NCBI GenBank assembly: GCA_001464625.1
Contig: LNFJ01000016.1
Coordinates: forward strand, 1-64,000
DNA length: 64,000 nt
Source: Bacteroidia bacterium Ga0077558
Lineage (GTDB): Bacteria > Bacteroidota > Bacteroidia > Chitinophagales > Chitinophagaceae
Direction: 5' to 3'
Below, one piece after another: positions 12,921 to 49,162 of the stretch. The notes beneath the pieces are model-generated. The model had not been told where the DNA came from, searched no databases, and was given only the letters and a program-made list of their open reading frames with translations. The first letter of the stretch is position 1; every line of letters begins with the position of its first letter. The translations under genes and the position numbers were made by a program.

Positions 12921-13106
12921 TTATACATTAATTCCTTTTATAGAATCCAGTAAGCCAAAGGCTTTTAATAGCCAAAGCACAATTGCAATAACTACTACAA
13001 TGTTTAAAATGTTTTTGATTTTTGCGTCCATTGGTATGTATGAATTGATAAGCCAAAGCAATACACCAGTGACGATAAGTACAAGAATAATTGTTAAGAG
13101 GGGCAT
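12921..13106 (-). CDS. Thivi_2564-type two-helix small membrane protein
   Basis: A 61-residue membrane protein, MPLLTIILVLIVTGVLLWLINSYIPMDAKIKNILNIVVVIAIVLWLLKAFGLLDSIKGINV by composition: helix, a short loop containing IPMDAKIKNILN, second helix ending WLLKAFGLL. This conserved layout, with IPMD in the loop, is that of the Thivi_2564 family found in many Gram-negative bacteria. Its role is unknown. It is transcribed alone on the minus strand, with a hairpin behind it. Confidence 0.8.
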   Translation of the reverse strand: MPLLTIILVLIVTGVLLWLINSYIPMDAKIKNILNIVVVIAIVLWLLKAFGLLDSIKGINV

Positions 13107-16588: not shown

Positions 16589-17878
16589 TCAAACATCGGC
16601 CTGGGTACTCTGTCTTTTCTTTTGCCATTCTACCATGCAATAAATTACCAGCCCAACTCCCAAAGCAATAGAAACATCCGTTAATTCTTTTAGTTTAGAG
16701 CTGCTTAGTAACCAGCAGGCTATCAGTACACCGGCTACTGCAAAAAATTTTCCATACGGGATCTTAAAGAAGCCTGTTTGTGCCGTGTTTCTATTGCGCA
16801 GCCTTATTAAAGCAATGCAGACAATAGCATAGATCATTACTCTTGTAATAGCACTAATGGTAGCTGCATATATAAAGGAGTTGCTGATTGAAATAAGGAT
16901 GGTGACTACCGTAAATAAAATCAACGACCAGGTAGGTGTTTTAAATTTGGGATGCACAAAGGAAAACACTTTGGGGAATTGTTTTTCTTCACTAAAAGCA
17001 AATGGTAGTCTTGAGCCAACCAGCATAATGGCATTTAGTGTTCCTGTTACAGAAAATAATGCGCCAAGAGCAATTAAAGTTGCTCCGGTTTTTCCCATAA
17101 ATATGCCTGCTGCTTCTGCCAACGGCTTATCGGATGTTGCCAGTGAAGGCAAGGTGCCGATACTTACAATTTGTATCAGCATATAAATTACTGCAATAAG
17201 CAGGGCGGATGATAATAATGCAAACGGAATATTTTTTCCGGGATTCTTTACTTCTCCCGAGTTTACCAATACTGATTCAAAACCACCAAATGCAAACACC
17301 AATAACAACACGGTGGGGGAGAAGGAAGAAAAGCCCGGCATTTGCTTTAGTTCAAAATTGGCCGGCTCAATATGCAGAAATCCTACAATGATAAATAGCA
17401 AGAGCGGTAGTAGCTTGGCAATAGTAAGAAAATTATTTACCCTTGTTGAATTCTTTATGCCGATATGATTTATAAAAGCTAGTAGCAAAGTGATTAATAG
17501 AATGCTGATGATGCGGGAAGAGGGTAATGCAAACCAATCGGAAAAAACAGAAAGATAGGTAACCAGCAAATTGATCAACGCTGCATACGTTATAAAACGG
17601 GTAAGCAATAACAACCAACCAGTTAGAAAGGCGGGTAATTTTCCAAAAGATGATAATGCATAGAGATAAGGGCCGCCGGTTTTATCGAAACGGCTGCTAA
17701 CTTCTGCAAAGCATAAAATGATAACAAATACAGCCAATGCACAAACCAGTAGAGCGGCAATACTGTAAACTCCGGTAGCTTTAAAAACTTTGGAGGGCAG
17801 ACCAAAAATTCCGGCCCCTATAACGCCGTTTATGAACAACAGTACAAGAGCCCATTTTCCGATGCTGCGATTTAGCAT
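16589..17878 (-). CDS. APC family amino acid permease
   Basis: A 429-residue integral membrane protein with about 12 helices and the APC hallmark at the N-terminus, VLLFINGVIGAGIFGLPSKVF (broken helix 1 with GAGIFGLP), followed by GGPYLYALSSFGKLPAFLTGW in helices 2-3 and FAFGGFESVLVNSGEVKNPGKNIPFALLSS in helix 6. Members exchange or import amino acids by proton coupling; which amino acid is unclear. A copy of the six-fold 38-bp promoter-like element (17979..18016) faces this gene, and a near-consensus TATCTTTC lies 3 bases before the ATG, so it may have two promoters. Confidence 0.93.
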   Translation of the reverse strand: MLNRSIGKWALVLLFINGVIGAGIFGLPSKVFKATGVYSIAALLVCALAVFVIILCFAEVSSRFDKTGGPYLYALSSFGKLPAFLTGWLLLLTRFITYAALINLLVTYLSVFSDWFALPSSRIISILLITLLLAFINHIGIKNSTRVNNFLTIAKLLPLLLFIIVGFLHIEPANFELKQMPGFSSFSPTVLLLVFAFGGFESVLVNSGEVKNPGKNIPFALLSSALLIAVIYMLIQIVSIGTLPSLATSDKPLAEAAGIFMGKTGATLIALGALFSVTGTLNAIMLVGSRLPFAFSEEKQFPKVFSFVHPKFKTPTWSLILFTVVTILISISNSFIYAATISAITRVMIYAIVCIALIRLRNRNTAQTGFFKIPYGKFFAVAGVLIACWLLSSSKLKELTDVSIALGVGLVIYCMVEWQKKRQSTQADV

Positions 17879-17978
17879 TGGGAAAGATAGGAAAAAAAGA
17901 ATTTGCTACAGTATAACAAACAGCTGATTAGAGAGTTTAGGGGATTGTTACAAAGTTGACCAAAACGGTTGTCTTGTT

Positions 17979-18016
17979 TGTTATATGTATCTGCTGAAAG
18001 TTTACATTATTCACAC
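17979..18016 (-). promoter_or_regulatory. 38-bp bipartite element, copy E (upstream of the APC permease)
   Basis: Minus strand: GTGTGAATAATGTAA, 17-base spacer, ATAACA preceded by T. It matches box 1 at 13 of 15 positions and has the same spacing as the five other copies. The second box ends 101 bases before the permease ATG. Confidence 0.55.
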
Positions 18017-18113: not shown

Positions 18114-18674
18114 TTGAAATTGTACATAAAAAATATGGTCTGCATCCGCTGCAAAATCGTAGTCAAGGATGAACTCGATAAGCTGGGGTTGAAATACCGG
18201 ACCGTAGAACTGGGTGAAGCAGAATTGGTAGAAAATATAACACCAGAGATGCGGGAAAAAATCAGGGAGGCATTGTTGAAGTCGGGTCTTGAGCTTATGG
18301 ATGATAAGAAAAGTGTGCTGATACAAAAGATAAAAAATGTGATCATTGAGTTAGTGCATTATTCTGAAGAGCCGCTTACCATCAACTTCTCCGTTTACCT
18401 GAGTGAAAAATTAAACCACGACTATACCTATCTTGCCAATCTTTTTTCTGAAGTACAGGGAACCACTATTGAACAATTCATTATTGCTCATAAAATAGAA
18501 CGGGTAAAAGAATTGCTGGTATATAATGAACTCAATCTTACTGAAATAGCTTACTTAATGCATTATAGTGGCGTAGCACATCTTTCTACGCAGTTCAAAA
18601 AAGTAACAGGACTTACACCTACCCATTTTAAAAAGCTAAAGGAACTACGCCGTAACATGCTGGATGAAGTGTGA
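18114..18674 (+). CDS. AraC-type regulator with an HMA-like N-terminus
   Basis: A 186-residue protein starting at TTG (MKLYIKNMVCIRCK). The first 65 residues resemble a heavy-metal-associated ferredoxin-like fold: strand MKLYIKNMVC with the CxxC pair C10/C13, a helix, and a second strand YRTVELGEAEL. Residues about 80-186 are an AraC DNA-binding domain with YLSEKLNHDYTYLANLFSEVQGTTIEQFIIAHKIERVKELLVY and LTEIAYLMHYSGVAHLSTQFKKVTGLTPTHFKK. The TTG is chosen because an ATG start at M8 would remove the first strand. This fusion suggests metal or redox sensing; the target genes are unknown. An inverted repeat precedes the start. Confidence 0.85.
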   Translation: MKLYIKNMVCIRCKIVVKDELDKLGLKYRTVELGEAELVENITPEMREKIREALLKSGLELMDDKKSVLIQKIKNVIIELVHYSEEPLTINFSVYLSEKLNHDYTYLANLFSEVQGTTIEQFIIAHKIERVKELLVYNELNLTEIAYLMHYSGVAHLSTQFKKVTGLTPTHFKKLKELRRNMLDEV

Positions 18675-18706
18675 ATTATATAAGTTTATTCAGGTTTTAT
18701 GTAACA
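18669..18706 (+). promoter_or_regulatory. 38-bp bipartite element, copy A (upstream of the 106-aa membrane TPR gene)
   Basis: Plus strand: GTGTGAATTATATAA, 17-base spacer, GTAACA preceded by T. Box 1 overlaps the stop codon of the AraC-type gene. The second box ends 32 bases before the GTG at 18739. Confidence 0.65.
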
Positions 18707-18738
18707 AACTACAGAATAGAATAGCTGAACTTCATTAG

Positions 18739-19226: not shown

Positions 19227-19619
19227 ATGAAAGAAAATAATTTGCCTGGAAAAAGTGATGATTTGGCTGGTAATGCAGAAAGCAGTACAGCAGAACTGGA
19301 GAAATCGGTCGGGCATATCATTGTGGAAATAATTGAGTATATGCCCAATGCTGTAGTTATTAAAACAATCATCCGAAAGTCAACAGGCAATATAAGTGTA
19401 ATGTCGTTCGATAGCGGCGAAGGGTTAACAGAAAGAAAATCTCCGTTTGACACATTTGCACAGATCATTGAAGGCAAGGCAGAAATTGTTATTGATAAAG
19501 TATCGCATTTGCTTCAATCAGGTCAGGGGATTATTATACCAGCTCATGCATCCAATTTAATTAAACCTAACGGACGGTTTAAAATGATTCAAACAATTAT
19601 TAAAAGCGGCTATGATTAA
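19227..19619 (+). CDS. cupin-domain protein (paralogue 1 of 3)
   Basis: A 130-residue single-domain cupin with a disordered N-terminus. Core: GHIIVEIIEYMPNAVVIKTIIRKSTGNISVMSFDSGEGLTERKSPFDTFAQIIEGKAEIVIDKVSHLLQSGQGIIIPAHASNLIKPNGRFKMIQTIIKSGYD. Cupin motif 1 lacks the usual HxH (SPFDTF instead) and motif 2 has N in place of H (AHASN), so classical metal binding looks lost. Two paralogues lie at 44616 and 48710. Such proteins are often sensory or accessory, not enzymes. It is followed 38 bases later by a lipoprotein gene. Confidence 0.85.
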   Translation: MKENNLPGKSDDLAGNAESSTAELEKSVGHIIVEIIEYMPNAVVIKTIIRKSTGNISVMSFDSGEGLTERKSPFDTFAQIIEGKAEIVIDKVSHLLQSGQGIIIPAHASNLIKPNGRFKMIQTIIKSGYD

Positions 19620-19657
19620 AATCTATTCAAAAATTAATCTTATAAATTATTTATTCT

Positions 19658-20095
19658 ATGATTAGAAAAATTGTAACACCCAAGTTTCTTTTGTCTCTTA
19701 TTGTGTTGATTGCTGTTCTTGTATTATTTAATGCTTGCAGTAAAAAAATTGCATTCCAGGTTTCACCGGTAACGCCGGCAGCGCAAGGTTTTGTAAAGGT
19801 AAAACAGGATAATAATCAGAACTATGCAATAGATATTGACCTTACGAATTTAGCAGCACCAGATAGGTTACAACCACCCCGCAGAATTTATATCGTTTGG
19901 ATGGAAAGTAATGAAGCGTCAATTAGAAATATTGGACAAATCAACAGTTCTTCCAATTGGCTCAGTAGTAAATTAAAGGCATCTTTTGAAACAGTATCAT
20001 CAAACAAGCCCACCCGTATTTTTATTACGGCAGAAGACGATAGCAATGTTCAATATCCCAGCTCAACAATGGTTTTATCAACTGGTAATTTTTAA
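19658..20095 (+). CDS. lipoprotein of unknown function
   Basis: A 145-residue protein with a lipoprotein signal ending LVLFNAC and a mature domain containing PPRRIYIVWMESNEASIRNIGQINSSSNWLSSKLKASFETVSSNKPTRIFITAEDDSNVQYPSSTMVLSTGNF. This C-terminal block is reminiscent of the extracytoplasmic domain of RskA-type anti-sigma factors (IYIVW ... GQI ... FETVS ... ITAEDD), but it has no transmembrane or cytoplasmic sigma-binding part, so the resemblance only suggests a beta-sandwich fold. Confidence 0.65.
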   Translation: MIRKIVTPKFLLSLIVLIAVLVLFNACSKKIAFQVSPVTPAAQGFVKVKQDNNQNYAIDIDLTNLAAPDRLQPPRRIYIVWMESNEASIRNIGQINSSSNWLSSKLKASFETVSSNKPTRIFITAEDDSNVQYPSSTMVLSTGNF

Positions 20096-20106
20096 AATGA
20101 TTTCTC

Positions 20107-20178
20107 ATATCGTATTAAAATATAAACTATAAAATATAAGTCTTTATTTAAGAATGCTGCAACCAAATAATACGATAT
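20107..20178 (+). repeat. long-spaced inverted repeat upstream of the kinase gene
   Basis: ATATCGTATTA at 20107 and TAATACGATAT at 20168 form an 11-bp perfect inverted repeat with a 50-base spacer, between the lipoprotein and kinase genes. It may be two operator half sites or a long hairpin. Confidence 0.35.
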
Positions 20179-20236
20179 TGAGCCCTATGCCGAATAAGCT
20201 TTTTTTAGTAACTGCTTTCACAGTTAAAACAAAAAA

Positions 20237-20971
20237 ATGAAGCCTGACACCACAACCGAAACGACGACTGTGTTTATACCACCGACGCCAAAACAGCAAG
20301 TTGTAGCACAAAATGCTAATCATGAAGAGGCAATGGTTTTATTTACTGCCGCTCATTTGCATGAGATAAGAAATCCATTAACAAATATTAATATGGCGGT
20401 AGAAATGCTGAGCTCAATTATAAGCGGGGAAGATGAAAAATCATGCCTTGATATAATACTGCGATCATCGAACCGTATCAATGCACTGATTACACATCTT
20501 ATTGTTCAACAACATAGCAGGATAGATAAAGTAGAAGAGTTTTCCGTGCATCAATTGCTTGATGAGGCACTTATCAGCATAACTGACCGAATTACCCTAA
20601 AACGAATTACTGTTATTAAAGAGTATGCGCCGCTTGATTATAAAGCGAAAATGGATATTGAGAAAATGAAAATCGCATTGATCAATATACTTATAAATGC
20701 AGTTGAAGCAATGGAAGAAAAAACTGGCCAGCTATGTCTTATTACTACTTTTACTGGCCAGCAATTTATTTTAGAGATCAAGGACAATGGTTGTGGTATT
20801 AGTCCTGCCAGCCTGGAGCATATTTTTAAACCTTATTTTACACAGAAAGTTGGTGGACTTGGAGTTGGATTGGGAGCAACGTATTCTATTCTCCAGGTTA
20901 ATAATATTACGCTAAAAGTAGAGTCAGAAGTAAATAAGGGAACTTGTTTCTTTTTGGAGTTTCCTAATTAA
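20237..20971 (+). CDS. soluble sensor-less histidine kinase
   Basis: A 244-residue protein with only the transmitter: HisKA with the phospho-accepting H42 in AAHLHEIRNPLTNINMAVEML, and a HATPase_c domain with N box INILINAVEAMEE, G1 box DNGCGI and G2-like GGLGVGLGATYSI. It has no membrane segment or recognisable input domain, only a 30-residue Thr/Pro-rich N-terminus. No response regulator gene is adjacent, so it may act on an unlinked partner. The strand and spacing (141 bases) allow co-transcription with the lipoprotein gene. Confidence 0.87.
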   Translation: MKPDTTTETTTVFIPPTPKQQVVAQNANHEEAMVLFTAAHLHEIRNPLTNINMAVEMLSSIISGEDEKSCLDIILRSSNRINALITHLIVQQHSRIDKVEEFSVHQLLDEALISITDRITLKRITVIKEYAPLDYKAKMDIEKMKIALINILINAVEAMEEKTGQLCLITTFTGQQFILEIKDNGCGISPASLEHIFKPYFTQKVGGLGVGLGATYSILQVNNITLKVESEVNKGTCFFLEFPN

Positions 20972-21079: not shown

Positions 21080-21208
21080 TTATATAGAAGGGGGATTAAG
21101 GGCTTTTTGTTGTTTCTTCACTTTTACTAGTTCGGTATGCCTGTAGTATAACGCAATCGTCAACAGCAATACAAATAATACGATCCGATAAATGTCACTA
21201 AATGTCAT
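21080..21208 (-). CDS. 42-residue single-pass membrane peptide
   Basis: ATG at 21208, stop at 21080. The peptide has an N-terminal amphipathic start (MTFSDIYR), one membrane helix (IVLFVLLLTIALYY), then a basic tail HTELVKVKKQQKALNPPSI. It has its own promoter-like element (copy F, second box ending 44 bases before the ATG) and a terminator 43 bases downstream, so it is a self-contained unit despite its size. Function unknown; a small regulator of a membrane complex is possible. Confidence 0.65.
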   Translation of the reverse strand: MTFSDIYRIVLFVLLLTIALYYRHTELVKVKKQQKALNPPSI

Positions 21209-21252
21209 TTTATAAATCTTTGAACAAAGATGAGGCAATGACAATGCCAGAT

Positions 21253-21290
21253 TGTTATAGCATTTCTGTTTTTTTTTATATTATTCACAT
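21253..21290 (-). promoter_or_regulatory. 38-bp bipartite element, copy F (upstream of the 42-aa peptide)
   Basis: Minus strand: ATGTGAATAATATAA, 17-base spacer, ATAACA preceded by T. It is divergent from copy B, with 29 bases between them. Confidence 0.6.
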
Positions 21291-21319
21291 TGCTTCTTTT
21301 TATATTTCTTTTATTAAAT

Positions 21320-21357
21320 GTGTGAATTATATAATTTATTTTTAAGTGATTGTAATA
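21320..21357 (+). promoter_or_regulatory. 38-bp bipartite element, copy B (upstream of the ncRNA candidate)
   Basis: Plus strand: GTGTGAATTATATAA, identical to copy A, 17-base spacer, GTAATA preceded by T. No ORF follows; the next features are an RNA-like inverted repeat and a terminator. Confidence 0.6.
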
Positions 21358-21363
21358 CTTAAA

Positions 21364-21607
21364 AAAATAAATAGTTACAATTTTATCAAATCATAACAGT
21401 GATAAATATTCTGCCTGTGCAGCATGACTCATTGAAGCTACATTCAGCACTGAGTTAGCGAAAATTGGTTATGCTGCAACAGCGGGCAGATTTATAGAGT
21501 TCAAAATATTTTTATCACTTTTCTGGTTCAGTAGTATCAAAGTTGAGGACTTGGGTTTTCATACACAAAGTCCTGTACCATTCCGGACTCTTCCAGGATG
21601 GTTTTTT
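21364..21607 (+). ncRNA. candidate small non-coding RNA, about 240 nt
   Basis: This gene-free stretch is bracketed by promoter-like copy B (ending 21357) and a canonical terminator at 21577..21607. Inside, 21411..21500 holds nested inverted repeats: TCTGCC with GGCAGA, and GCAGCATGAC with GTTATGCTGC (one G-T pair). Only trivial ORFs (3 and 8 codons) start with ATG on the plus strand. The 5' end is inferred from box 2. I do not recognise tmRNA, RNase P or SRP motifs; a 6S-like RNA cannot be excluded. Confidence 0.45.
21577..21607 (+). terminator. intrinsic terminator on the plus strand
   Basis: A 10-position stem with one mismatch (ACCATTCCGG against CCAGGATGGT), loop ACTCTT, then TTTTTT. No plus-strand gene ends here and the minus-strand side lacks a T run, so it points to an independent plus-strand transcript. 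Confidence 0.7.
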
Positions 21608-21640
21608 ATGTGTAAATGATAGAGAAAAGGAAGAGTATAT

Positions 21641-47456: not shown

Positions 47457-48517
47457 TTATCTTAAATACAATTCAAGTTCTACTCTTCTGTTTAATGCCC
47501 TCGCTGTTGAATTTCCATTAGAACCTGCAGGTCTGGTTTTACCATATCCTGTAAGATCTATTCTGCTTTCAGCTACCCCTTTGCCTGTTAAATAAGACAT
47601 CACCGCATCTGCACGGCTTTGTGAAACGGTAGTTGGATTTTTTTCAATGCCATCAGTATGACCGCCAATGCGCAGATTATAATCCGGGTATTCTTTTAAA
47701 ATATTTGCTACCTCATCCAGCATAGGGTAGGAAGATGTTTTTATCAGCGCATTTCCTGATTCAAACATCACACGACGGGTTGCAAATTGTAAACGCTTTG
47801 GCACTTCTTTTTTTACAACCGGGCAACCATAGTTTGAAATAACGCCTATAACACCCGGGCATTTGTCATCTGCATCCAATACACCATCTCCGTCTGTATC
47901 AGCCGGACATCCCCATGCATCTACTTTTGTTCCTGCATTAGTTGCAGGGCATTTGTCATCCGCATCTAGCACACCATCTTTATCACTGTCGGCATCACAT
48001 CCATTCACATCTGTTTTAATTCCTTTATTGGTATCAGGGCATTTATCGTTGGAATCTGGTACACCATCACCATCTGTATCCGGGCATCCCTGGAACATAT
48101 CCAGTCCTGCTGCATTCGGACATTTATCCTGCGAATCCTGGATGCCATCTGCATCACTATCAGGGCAACCTTTAAATCTTGCATCACCGGGTACATCAGG
48201 ACAACTATCGTTTGGATCGCTTACACCATCTTTATCTTTATCCTGGCAACCGTTCATGCCCGATGAACCAACTATAGACGGACATTTATCTAAATAGTCA
48301 GGCACACCATCCTTATCAGTATCAACAGGGCAACCCGTTCCATCTACCTGCACACCCGGTGGTGTGGATGGACACTTATCTCTTTTATTTTTTACACCAT
48401 CACCATCGCCATCTTTTTTCATTTCAAATTTGGAAGGAGTTTCTTGTGCAAATAGCGGAGTAGTAGCTGTTGCAAATAGAAATACAAAAAAAGCGGAAGA
48501 ATTTTTCTAAAGAACAT
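47457..48517 (-). CDS. OmpA-family protein with thrombospondin type 3 repeats, broken signal peptide
   Basis: A TSP3-OmpA protein. The continuous frame from 48422 encodes 321 residues: seven or so calcium-binding TSP3 repeats (DTDKDGVPDYLDKCP, DSDKDGVLDADDKCP and others), then an OmpA peptidoglycan-binding domain from about 205 (FESGNALIKTSSYPMLDEVANILKEYPDYNLRIGGHTDGIEKNPTTVSQSRADAVMSYL). Upstream in another frame, ATG 48517 starts MFFRKILPLF; adding one A to the seven at 48486-48492 fuses both and gives MFFRKILPLFFVFLFATATTPLFAQ, a clean signal, for 353 residues. Copy D of the 38-bp element precedes it. Confidence 0.85.
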
Positions 48518-48587
48518 AAAGAGTTTGTTTGTGTGAAAAATAGTTTTCAGTACGATATGCAAAGGTTGCTTTTATAATGAGCTTATC

Positions 48588-48625
48588 TGTTACACACTGC
48601 GGGTTTGCAGTTGTATAATTCGCAC
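48588..48625 (-). promoter_or_regulatory. 38-bp bipartite element, copy D (upstream of the OmpA/TSP3 gene)
   Basis: Minus strand: GTGCGAATTATACAA, 17-base spacer, GTAACA preceded by T. The second box ends 70 bases before the likely ATG at 48517. Confidence 0.6.
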
Positions 48626-48709: not shown

Positions 48710-49084
48710 TTATTCTTGCTTAAAGTCTTTAATGATTGTAGTGATCATTTTAAATTGAGAATCAGCAATAAAGCAATGTGGAATATTGGCTGGAATTATT
48801 ATTCCCTCGCCTAAATTAAGGTGATGTAATTCTCTGCCAATAGTAATGCTTGCTTTCCCGTCAATGACCTGCACATAGATATCATGTTCTATTGTTTTCT
48901 CACATAATTTCTCACCTTCATCGAAAGAAGTAGCTGTCACATTGCCGCTGGTTTTATTAACCACTGTTTTGCTAACAATGGAATCGGGAACATATTCTAC
49001 AATTTCAACAACAATATGTTTGTTGGGTCTGGGGGAATCGCTTTTGTTTTTTTGGCAATTTGCCGCTGGTGTATTTGTTTGCAC
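48710..49084 (-). CDS. cupin-domain protein (paralogue 3 of 3)
   Basis: A 124-residue cupin, the third member of the family at 19227 and 44616. Core KHIVVEIVEYVPDSIVSKTVVNKTSGNVTATSFDEGEKLCEKTIEHDIYVQVIDGKASITIGRELHHLNLGEGIIIPANIPHCFIADSQFKMITTIIKDF. Motif 1 has IEHDIY, so HxH is missing, as in the others. Copy C of the 38-bp element lies upstream, with its second box ending 40 bases before the ATG. Confidence 0.85.
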   Translation of the reverse strand: MQTNTPAANCQKNKSDSPRPNKHIVVEIVEYVPDSIVSKTVVNKTSGNVTATSFDEGEKLCEKTIEHDIYVQVIDGKASITIGRELHHLNLGEGIIIPANIPHCFIADSQFKMITTIIKDFKQE

Positions 49085-49124
49085 TTATTTTTTGATGTAA
49101 GCTCGGCTATCCTATTCGCTTTAA

Positions 49125-49162
49125 TGTTACATGAAAATACCTGGCTGTTATATAATTCACAT
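49125..49162 (-). promoter_or_regulatory. 38-bp bipartite element, copy C (upstream of cupin paralogue 3)
   Basis: Minus strand: ATGTGAATTATATAA, 17-base spacer, GTAACA preceded by T. Confidence 0.65.

Follow-up and report, generated by a model that had tools for sequence, protein, structure and literature searches.

Putative AraC/XylS-family activator sites ahead of housekeeping-type promoters in Bacteroidia bacterium Ga0077558 and its relatives

The stretch of DNA analysed here (the window, 64,000 nucleotides) belongs to a 106-kb contig of Bacteroidia bacterium Ga0077558 and carries six copies of a 38-bp directional element, two of which, E and A, flank the gene of a 186-aa AraC-family protein (Table 1). 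Copy A overlaps the stop codon of this gene and faces a 106-aa membrane protein that showed no match in Pfam. Farther on lie a cupin-like protein and a histidine kinase, and these neighbours (19227-20971) stay adjacent to the AraC gene in congeners; in relatives, the cupin-like and histidine kinase genes or their homologues sit behind sites of their own (e.g., L035 12068-12105). That every copy is aimed at a downstream gene or RNA, as originally predicted, holds for all six. The OmpA/TSP3 gene ahead of which copy D lies seems, judging from its reading frames, to be frameshifted: a signal-peptide-like start (MFFRKILPLFLYFYL) is found in a different frame at 48419-48517 (within the stretch 48419-48562), and the orthologue in the congener G008 (L037 1763-2827) is one uninterrupted 354-aa frame. 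Elsewhere in the window, a 61-aa membrane protein (12921-13106) has orthologues with an upstream site in the congeners G008 and G027, and no strong site was found upstream of it within the window.

Table 1. Coordinates of the copies, their putative targets and the neighbouring genes in the window. "Whole" includes the -7 box.
Feature	Coordinates	Strand	Details
Copy E	site 17979-18016, whole 17951-18016	-	-7 box CAACTTTG 17951-17958; predicted start ~17946
APC-type amino-acid permease	16589-17878	-	target of copy E
AraC-family protein, 186 aa	18114-18674	+	candidate regulator; TTG start; between copies E and A
Copy A	site 18669-18706, whole 18669-18734	+	-7 box GAACTTCA 18727-18734; predicted start ~18739
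Membrane protein, 106 aa	18739-19059	+	target of copy A
Cupin-like protein	19227-19619	+	beside AraC gene; 79-82% identical in G008 and G027
Histidine kinase	20237-20971	+	beside AraC gene; 45% identical in G027
Copy F	site 21253-21290, whole 21225-21290	-	-7 box CATCTTTG 21225-21232; predicted start ~21220
Membrane peptide, 42 aa	ORF 21080-21244	-	target of copy F; in-frame start ~21208
Copy B	site 21320-21357, whole 21320-21385	+	-7 box CAATTTTA 21378-21385; predicted start ~21390
Predicted structured RNA, ~225 nt	21390-21614	+	downstream of copy B
Copy D	site 48588-48625, whole 48560-48625	-	-7 box AACCTTTG 48560-48567; predicted start ~48555
OmpA/TSP3 protein	47457-48422	-	target of copy D
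Copy C	site 49125-49162, whole 49097-49162	-	weak -7-like box GAGCTTAC 49097-49104; predicted start ~49092
Cupin protein	48710-49084	-	target of copy C

All six 38-bp copies listed in the original prediction were recovered exactly, in position and strand, and their box 1 is identical to that of copy A at 15 (B), 14 (C) or 13 (D, E and F) of 15 positions. The constant spacing also stands, with 17 bases, the final one always T, followed by RTAAYA in the six copies, as does the divergent arrangement of B and F, 29 bases apart. A pattern search of the whole window allowing up to three mismatches returned exactly these six matches, while 100 dinucleotide shuffles averaged 0.01 matches and never gave more than 1. 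A matrix built from the six copies scored them at 30.5-34.6 bits, the next-best position of the window reaching 11.5. Across the genome (4.08 Mb in 196 contigs, 93% complete), a single extra copy was found within three mismatches, located upstream of a fatty-acid desaturase gene (G000:C66:13603-13640). A looser pattern with three mismatches gave 15 matches in the whole genome and 5 in the control, showing that these weaker matches are mostly due to chance.

No plausible gene was found close to copy B, which is predicted to drive a structured RNA. The segment in question has a minimum free energy of -70.6 kcal/mol (z -4.6 against shuffles) and ends in a terminator-like hairpin followed by a U run. 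It corresponds to no Rfam family, and searches in relatives retrieved just short, marginal matches.

The site profile, built from 109 and later 140 sites of Ga0077558 and related genomes, yields the consensus a-n-GTGTGAATnATRYAAC - tnwtt - AATTRTRTAACA - ~20 bases - cAnCTTTR, in which the two long blocks are the upstream and downstream half-sites, respectively. The third element, cAnCTTTR (positions 59-66 from the start of box 1), had been missed in the original prediction; it is present 20 bases past box 2 in all six window copies, those of copies A and C being imperfect. The columns of this box played no part in finding the sites, and its A falls at position 60 in 94/140 sites, at 59 in 27/140 and almost never elsewhere. 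A second set, taken from genome contigs, gave 72/94 and 10/94, so that the box is placed at one of these two positions in 121/140 and 82/94 sites in all. In the 109-site profile, A occupies position 60 in 87% of sites, TT positions 63-64 in 96-98% and T position 65 in 72%, while the first base is mostly C or A, not T, and the last one G or A. By its sequence and placement, cAnCTTTR would be the counterpart of the Bacteroidota -7 box TAnnTTTG, located from -12 to -5 (PMC9723704), although the C or A at position 59, instead of the T of TAnnTTTG, means that a different sigma factor may be involved. The earlier remark that the copies do not match TAnnTTTG is thus true of the 38 bases and fails for the promoters, which hold a -7 box downstream. 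When aligned on this box, the transcription start would lie at about position 71, box 2 would end at about -33, and box 1 would span about -70 to -55. The start is therefore predicted about 33 bases past box 2, and not 7-10 bases past it as had been expected.

Boxes 1 and 2 lie at a constant distance from each other in 101/101 and 55/56 separately scored pairs, with 0 in the reversed controls. Comparing the profile columns at every lag, the best direct repeat was obtained at 21 bp (weighted sum 10.4), the runner-up being lag 9 (6.2), and a reading of the site as an inverted repeat was weaker (6.1 versus 10.4) and was discarded. The repeat unit, aatnaTRTAAC, is present twice, across boxes 1 and 2, and ends at about -33; a tandem site of this period and position has the geometry of AraC/XylS-family sites. 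With the start placed as above, the proximal half-site covers position -35 (-33), its distance to the promoter core being fixed. A rigid pair of half-sites together with a core that has one base of play fits an activator site combined with a sigma site, whereas a -35/-10 pair, from which one would expect no third box and no repeat, was rejected.

Beyond the window, the motif is found in 52/249 genomes of the order, with 250 copies against 2 for a reversed control pattern, and in 56/295 genomes of the class. Rather than being scattered inside genes, 137/140 sites are intergenic and upstream of genes, at a median of 69 nt from the next start. As had been proposed, the element is directional and part of promoters; it is also conserved well outside Ga0077558. 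In the congeners G008 and G027, it lies beside orthologues of the AraC protein of the window (80-82% identical), of the 106-aa membrane protein and of the cupin-like protein, as well as beside those of the histidine kinase (G027) and of OmpA/TSP3 (G008; L037, 74% identical protein). The promoter of copy A has orthologous counterparts at L034 (1078-1115) and L035 (10830-10867). Carriers of the regulator gene include Niastella caeni, Flavihumibacter fluminis, Chitinophaga rupis, and Flavobacterium, Mucilaginibacter and Arcicella species. Matches with two mismatches in loci of the G001, G009, G033 and G047 type were mostly intragenic and had no -7 box, and were set aside as chance. A record titled as a metagenome-assembled genome of Limnohabitans, a betaproteobacterium, contains a Bacteroidota-type AraC locus (L312), probably through bin contamination.

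The candidate regulator (18114-18674) matches HTH_18 in Pfam (2.9e-15, residues 96-174), a DNA-binding domain with two helix-turn-helix units that are both present in the AlphaFold model (pLDDT 90.7), and Foldseek relates this part to the structures of AraT, MarA-DNA, GadX, SoxS and AraC. Its N-terminal domain (~1-61), a candidate for sensing or dimerisation, is HMA-like, with a profile match to ATP7B (9e-4) and a fold match to copper chaperones. The motif MVCIRC of this domain is often MVSIRC in the alignment, leaving the second Cys of MxCxxC (Cys10, with the TTG codon as residue 1) as the sole invariant one. A 43% identical HMA-AraC paralogue (L182, G171:C31) has the full NMVCQRC motif and adjoins a multicopper oxidase gene, and its sequence context suggests copper sensing in that branch of paralogues.

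The linkage of sites and regulator was measured in loci picked for the AraC protein only. A site was present within 1.5 kb of the orthologue in 28/30 of them (reversed pattern, 0/30) and within 2.5 kb in 64/80 of a larger set that shares a few records with the former (reversed, 0/80). Over many families, no gene neighbours the sites as constantly as the AraC gene. Of 94 sites, 26 lie where the AraC gene ends (3' end) and face the next gene, and 19 precede the AraC gene itself. At the genome level, the motif occurs in 39/52 genomes with a close AraC homologue and in 13/197 others (Fisher p 3e-23, with no correction for kinship). Matching sites are fewer beside less similar paralogues of 50-57% identity (7/20 loci, Fisher p 1.6e-5), and a relaxed pattern recovered 11 sites of the same architecture in these 20 loci (L194-L213), with 0 for the reversed one; in several of these sites the upstream half is altered to AATCTTATAA. 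The site and the AraC protein would thus diverge together, possibly as a series of co-diverged regulator-site pairs, and paralogues with similar recognition helices may share sites or compete for them. Sequence, spacing, repeat, -7 box, linkage, conservation and co-divergence were all computed here.

Several genomes have sites (six in G143, six in G175 and two in G187), and protein, PF12833 and profile searches retrieved no AraC orthologue in these three or in G155. The assemblies of G143, G175 and G187 are 89-96% complete, so the regulator could possibly have been lost from them in assembly, or a second reader of the motif may exist. In G137, the AraC orthologue (L184, G137:C69) is truncated after query residue 118 and has an intact site upstream.

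Our preferred explanation, which we consider highly probable, is that the copies are putative dimer sites of an AraC/XylS-family activator ahead of housekeeping promoters, most likely read by the HMA-AraC protein itself. Other explanations have to be weighed against it. The copies could be a complete promoter of an ECF-like alternative sigma factor, with box 1 as -35 and box 2 as -10, since they are directional, intergenic, always ahead of genes and fixed in spacing, and box 2 (TATAACA/TGTAACA) looks like a -10 hexamer. Nevertheless, the conserved housekeeping-type -7 box of nearly all sites would then be idle, the two boxes make up a 21-bp direct repeat, many information-rich positions lie upstream of any possible -35, and an ECF motif described for a flavobacterium carries CGT as its -10 (PMC9723704), unlike box 2; we regard this as very unlikely. 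The original prediction of an undescribed promoter class therefore survives in that these are promoter elements, and not in its pairing of boxes 1 and 2, which are probably no -35/-10 pair, box 2 falling on the predicted -33 position. Between the two readers it had offered, the alternative sigma factor is disfavoured by the housekeeping-type -7 box at a fixed distance and by the direct repeat, and the activator is favoured by this same repeat and by the linked AraC gene. That the copies are a repeat family, mobile sequence or chance resemblance with no regulatory role, as their grouping within 31 kb of one genome could indicate, is extremely improbable, given that the copies share no sequence similarity in the spacers that separate their boxes, that orthologous genes are preceded by copies in other species, that the copies are intergenic and all face their gene the same way, and that 0.01 copies are expected by chance.

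A less remote alternative, although still unlikely, concerns the identity of the activator. Gene linkage by itself fits a regulator and a regulated gene alike, and the AraC gene could be a well-conserved target of some other dimeric activator that binds tandem repeats, such as a LytTR response regulator. Sites of LytTR response regulators, two 9-bp repeats with a 12-bp gap, repeat about every 21 bp, a period similar to that seen here. This idea would also account for the good sites in some genomes in which no AraC orthologue was detected and for the frequency with which a site precedes the AraC gene itself. Against it, the sites have no neighbour more constant than the AraC gene, the paralogues of which have correspondingly altered sites, and the isolated group of sites in G143 (L158) showed no other regulator gene next to it. 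The HMA-AraC protein thus stays the most probable reader.

Regarding the genes under control, the first proteins downstream of the sites (n=116) include, in Pfam, CsbD (6), OmpA with TSP3 (4), AraC itself (4), ice-binding proteins (3), fatty-acid desaturases (3 plus 1), DUF5670 (3), ferritin/Dps (2), GH130 (2), one BON and one DUF892, a list that records occurrence at promoters with sites and not enrichment. When 30 CsbD genes were fetched from 25 genomes carrying the motif or the regulator, regardless of where the motif lay, 16/30 had a correctly oriented site about 60-130 bases upstream, and the reversed sequence gave 0. These target families point to a stress-related regulon. In Ga0077558, we propose that it comprises seven promoters, among them those around the regulator gene itself and that of one structured RNA.

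Binding, activation, the identity of the sigma factor and an inducing signal are what we infer from these patterns. In the mechanism envisaged, an HMA-AraC dimer would sit on the tandem direct repeat of 21-bp period, with its downstream subunit at about -33 replacing a weak or missing -33 element and lying next to the polymerase. The weak -7 box cAnCTTTR, 20 bases on, would be read by the housekeeping sigma factor, and the bound activator would recruit or stabilise RNA polymerase (class II activation), giving a start about 33 bases past box 2. In relatives, the targets would be stress and envelope genes (CsbD, Dps, OmpA/TSP3 and fatty-acid desaturases).

No paper containing the motif strings was found in an open-access search, most subscription journals lying outside it, and no literature linking AraC, CsbD and Bacteroidetes or describing a general stress regulator for Bacteroidota was found in what was searched. 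The regulon, whose sites occur across the phylum, thus appears to be undescribed. A more ambitious reading, which we offer tentatively and which is rather more apt to fail than to hold, is that of a Bacteroidota-wide HMA-AraC stress regulon acting via the housekeeping sigma factor and standing in for the SigB/RpoS regulons, with the paralogues as a family of co-diverged regulators and sites. If true, CsbD, Dps, desaturases, outer-membrane proteins and a structured RNA would be switched on by HMA-AraC. The analysis defines a promoter architecture of 66 bp precisely, names a candidate regulator and lists targets in Chitinophagaceae, Flavobacterium, Mucilaginibacter, Arcicella and others, testable in any tractable member, while the paralogous regulator-site pairs would form a natural series for how AraC-type proteins choose DNA. 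It also carries a caution for the phylum, in that a new promoter class can be mimicked by a strong motif that precedes a degenerate -7 box by 20-40 bases.

Compared with known systems, the -7 box fits the nAnnTTTR of the sigmaA promoters of Bacteroidota (motifs SM1-3, PMC9723704), but its first T is mostly C or A, and the -33 TTG is absent, with an activator half-site in its place. The kinds of targets overlap with those of the SigB and RpoS regulons (CsbD, Dps-like ferritins and small membrane proteins), although control would be exerted here via an activator site and not via an alternative sigma factor. MarA, SoxS and Rob are likewise small AraC-type activators of scattered stress and envelope genes, and the DNA-binding domain matches the MarA and SoxS structures; nevertheless, MarA and SoxS act as monomers on a single site of about 20 bp instead of a tandem repeat, and all three are devoid of the HMA-like domain. 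A further likeness is that to XylS at Pm, where each site is a pair of 15-bp direct repeats, boxes A and B, which reportedly overlap the site of the polymerase (PMC5481539). Common to XylS/Pm, to other AraC/XylS-family activator sites and to the present ones are two direct repeats, each made of two short boxes separated by one helical turn, a 21-bp period, a proximal repeat over the upstream promoter element and an activator gene nearby, and the proposed activation at a weak -7 box would, by analogy, resemble that by XylS at Pm (PMC5481539). In contrast to XylS/Pm, the promoter here belongs to the -7 type of Bacteroidota, conservation is far better in the upstream half-site than in the downstream one, an HMA-like domain replaces the usual ligand-binding domain, and putative stress and envelope targets take the place of a catabolic operon.
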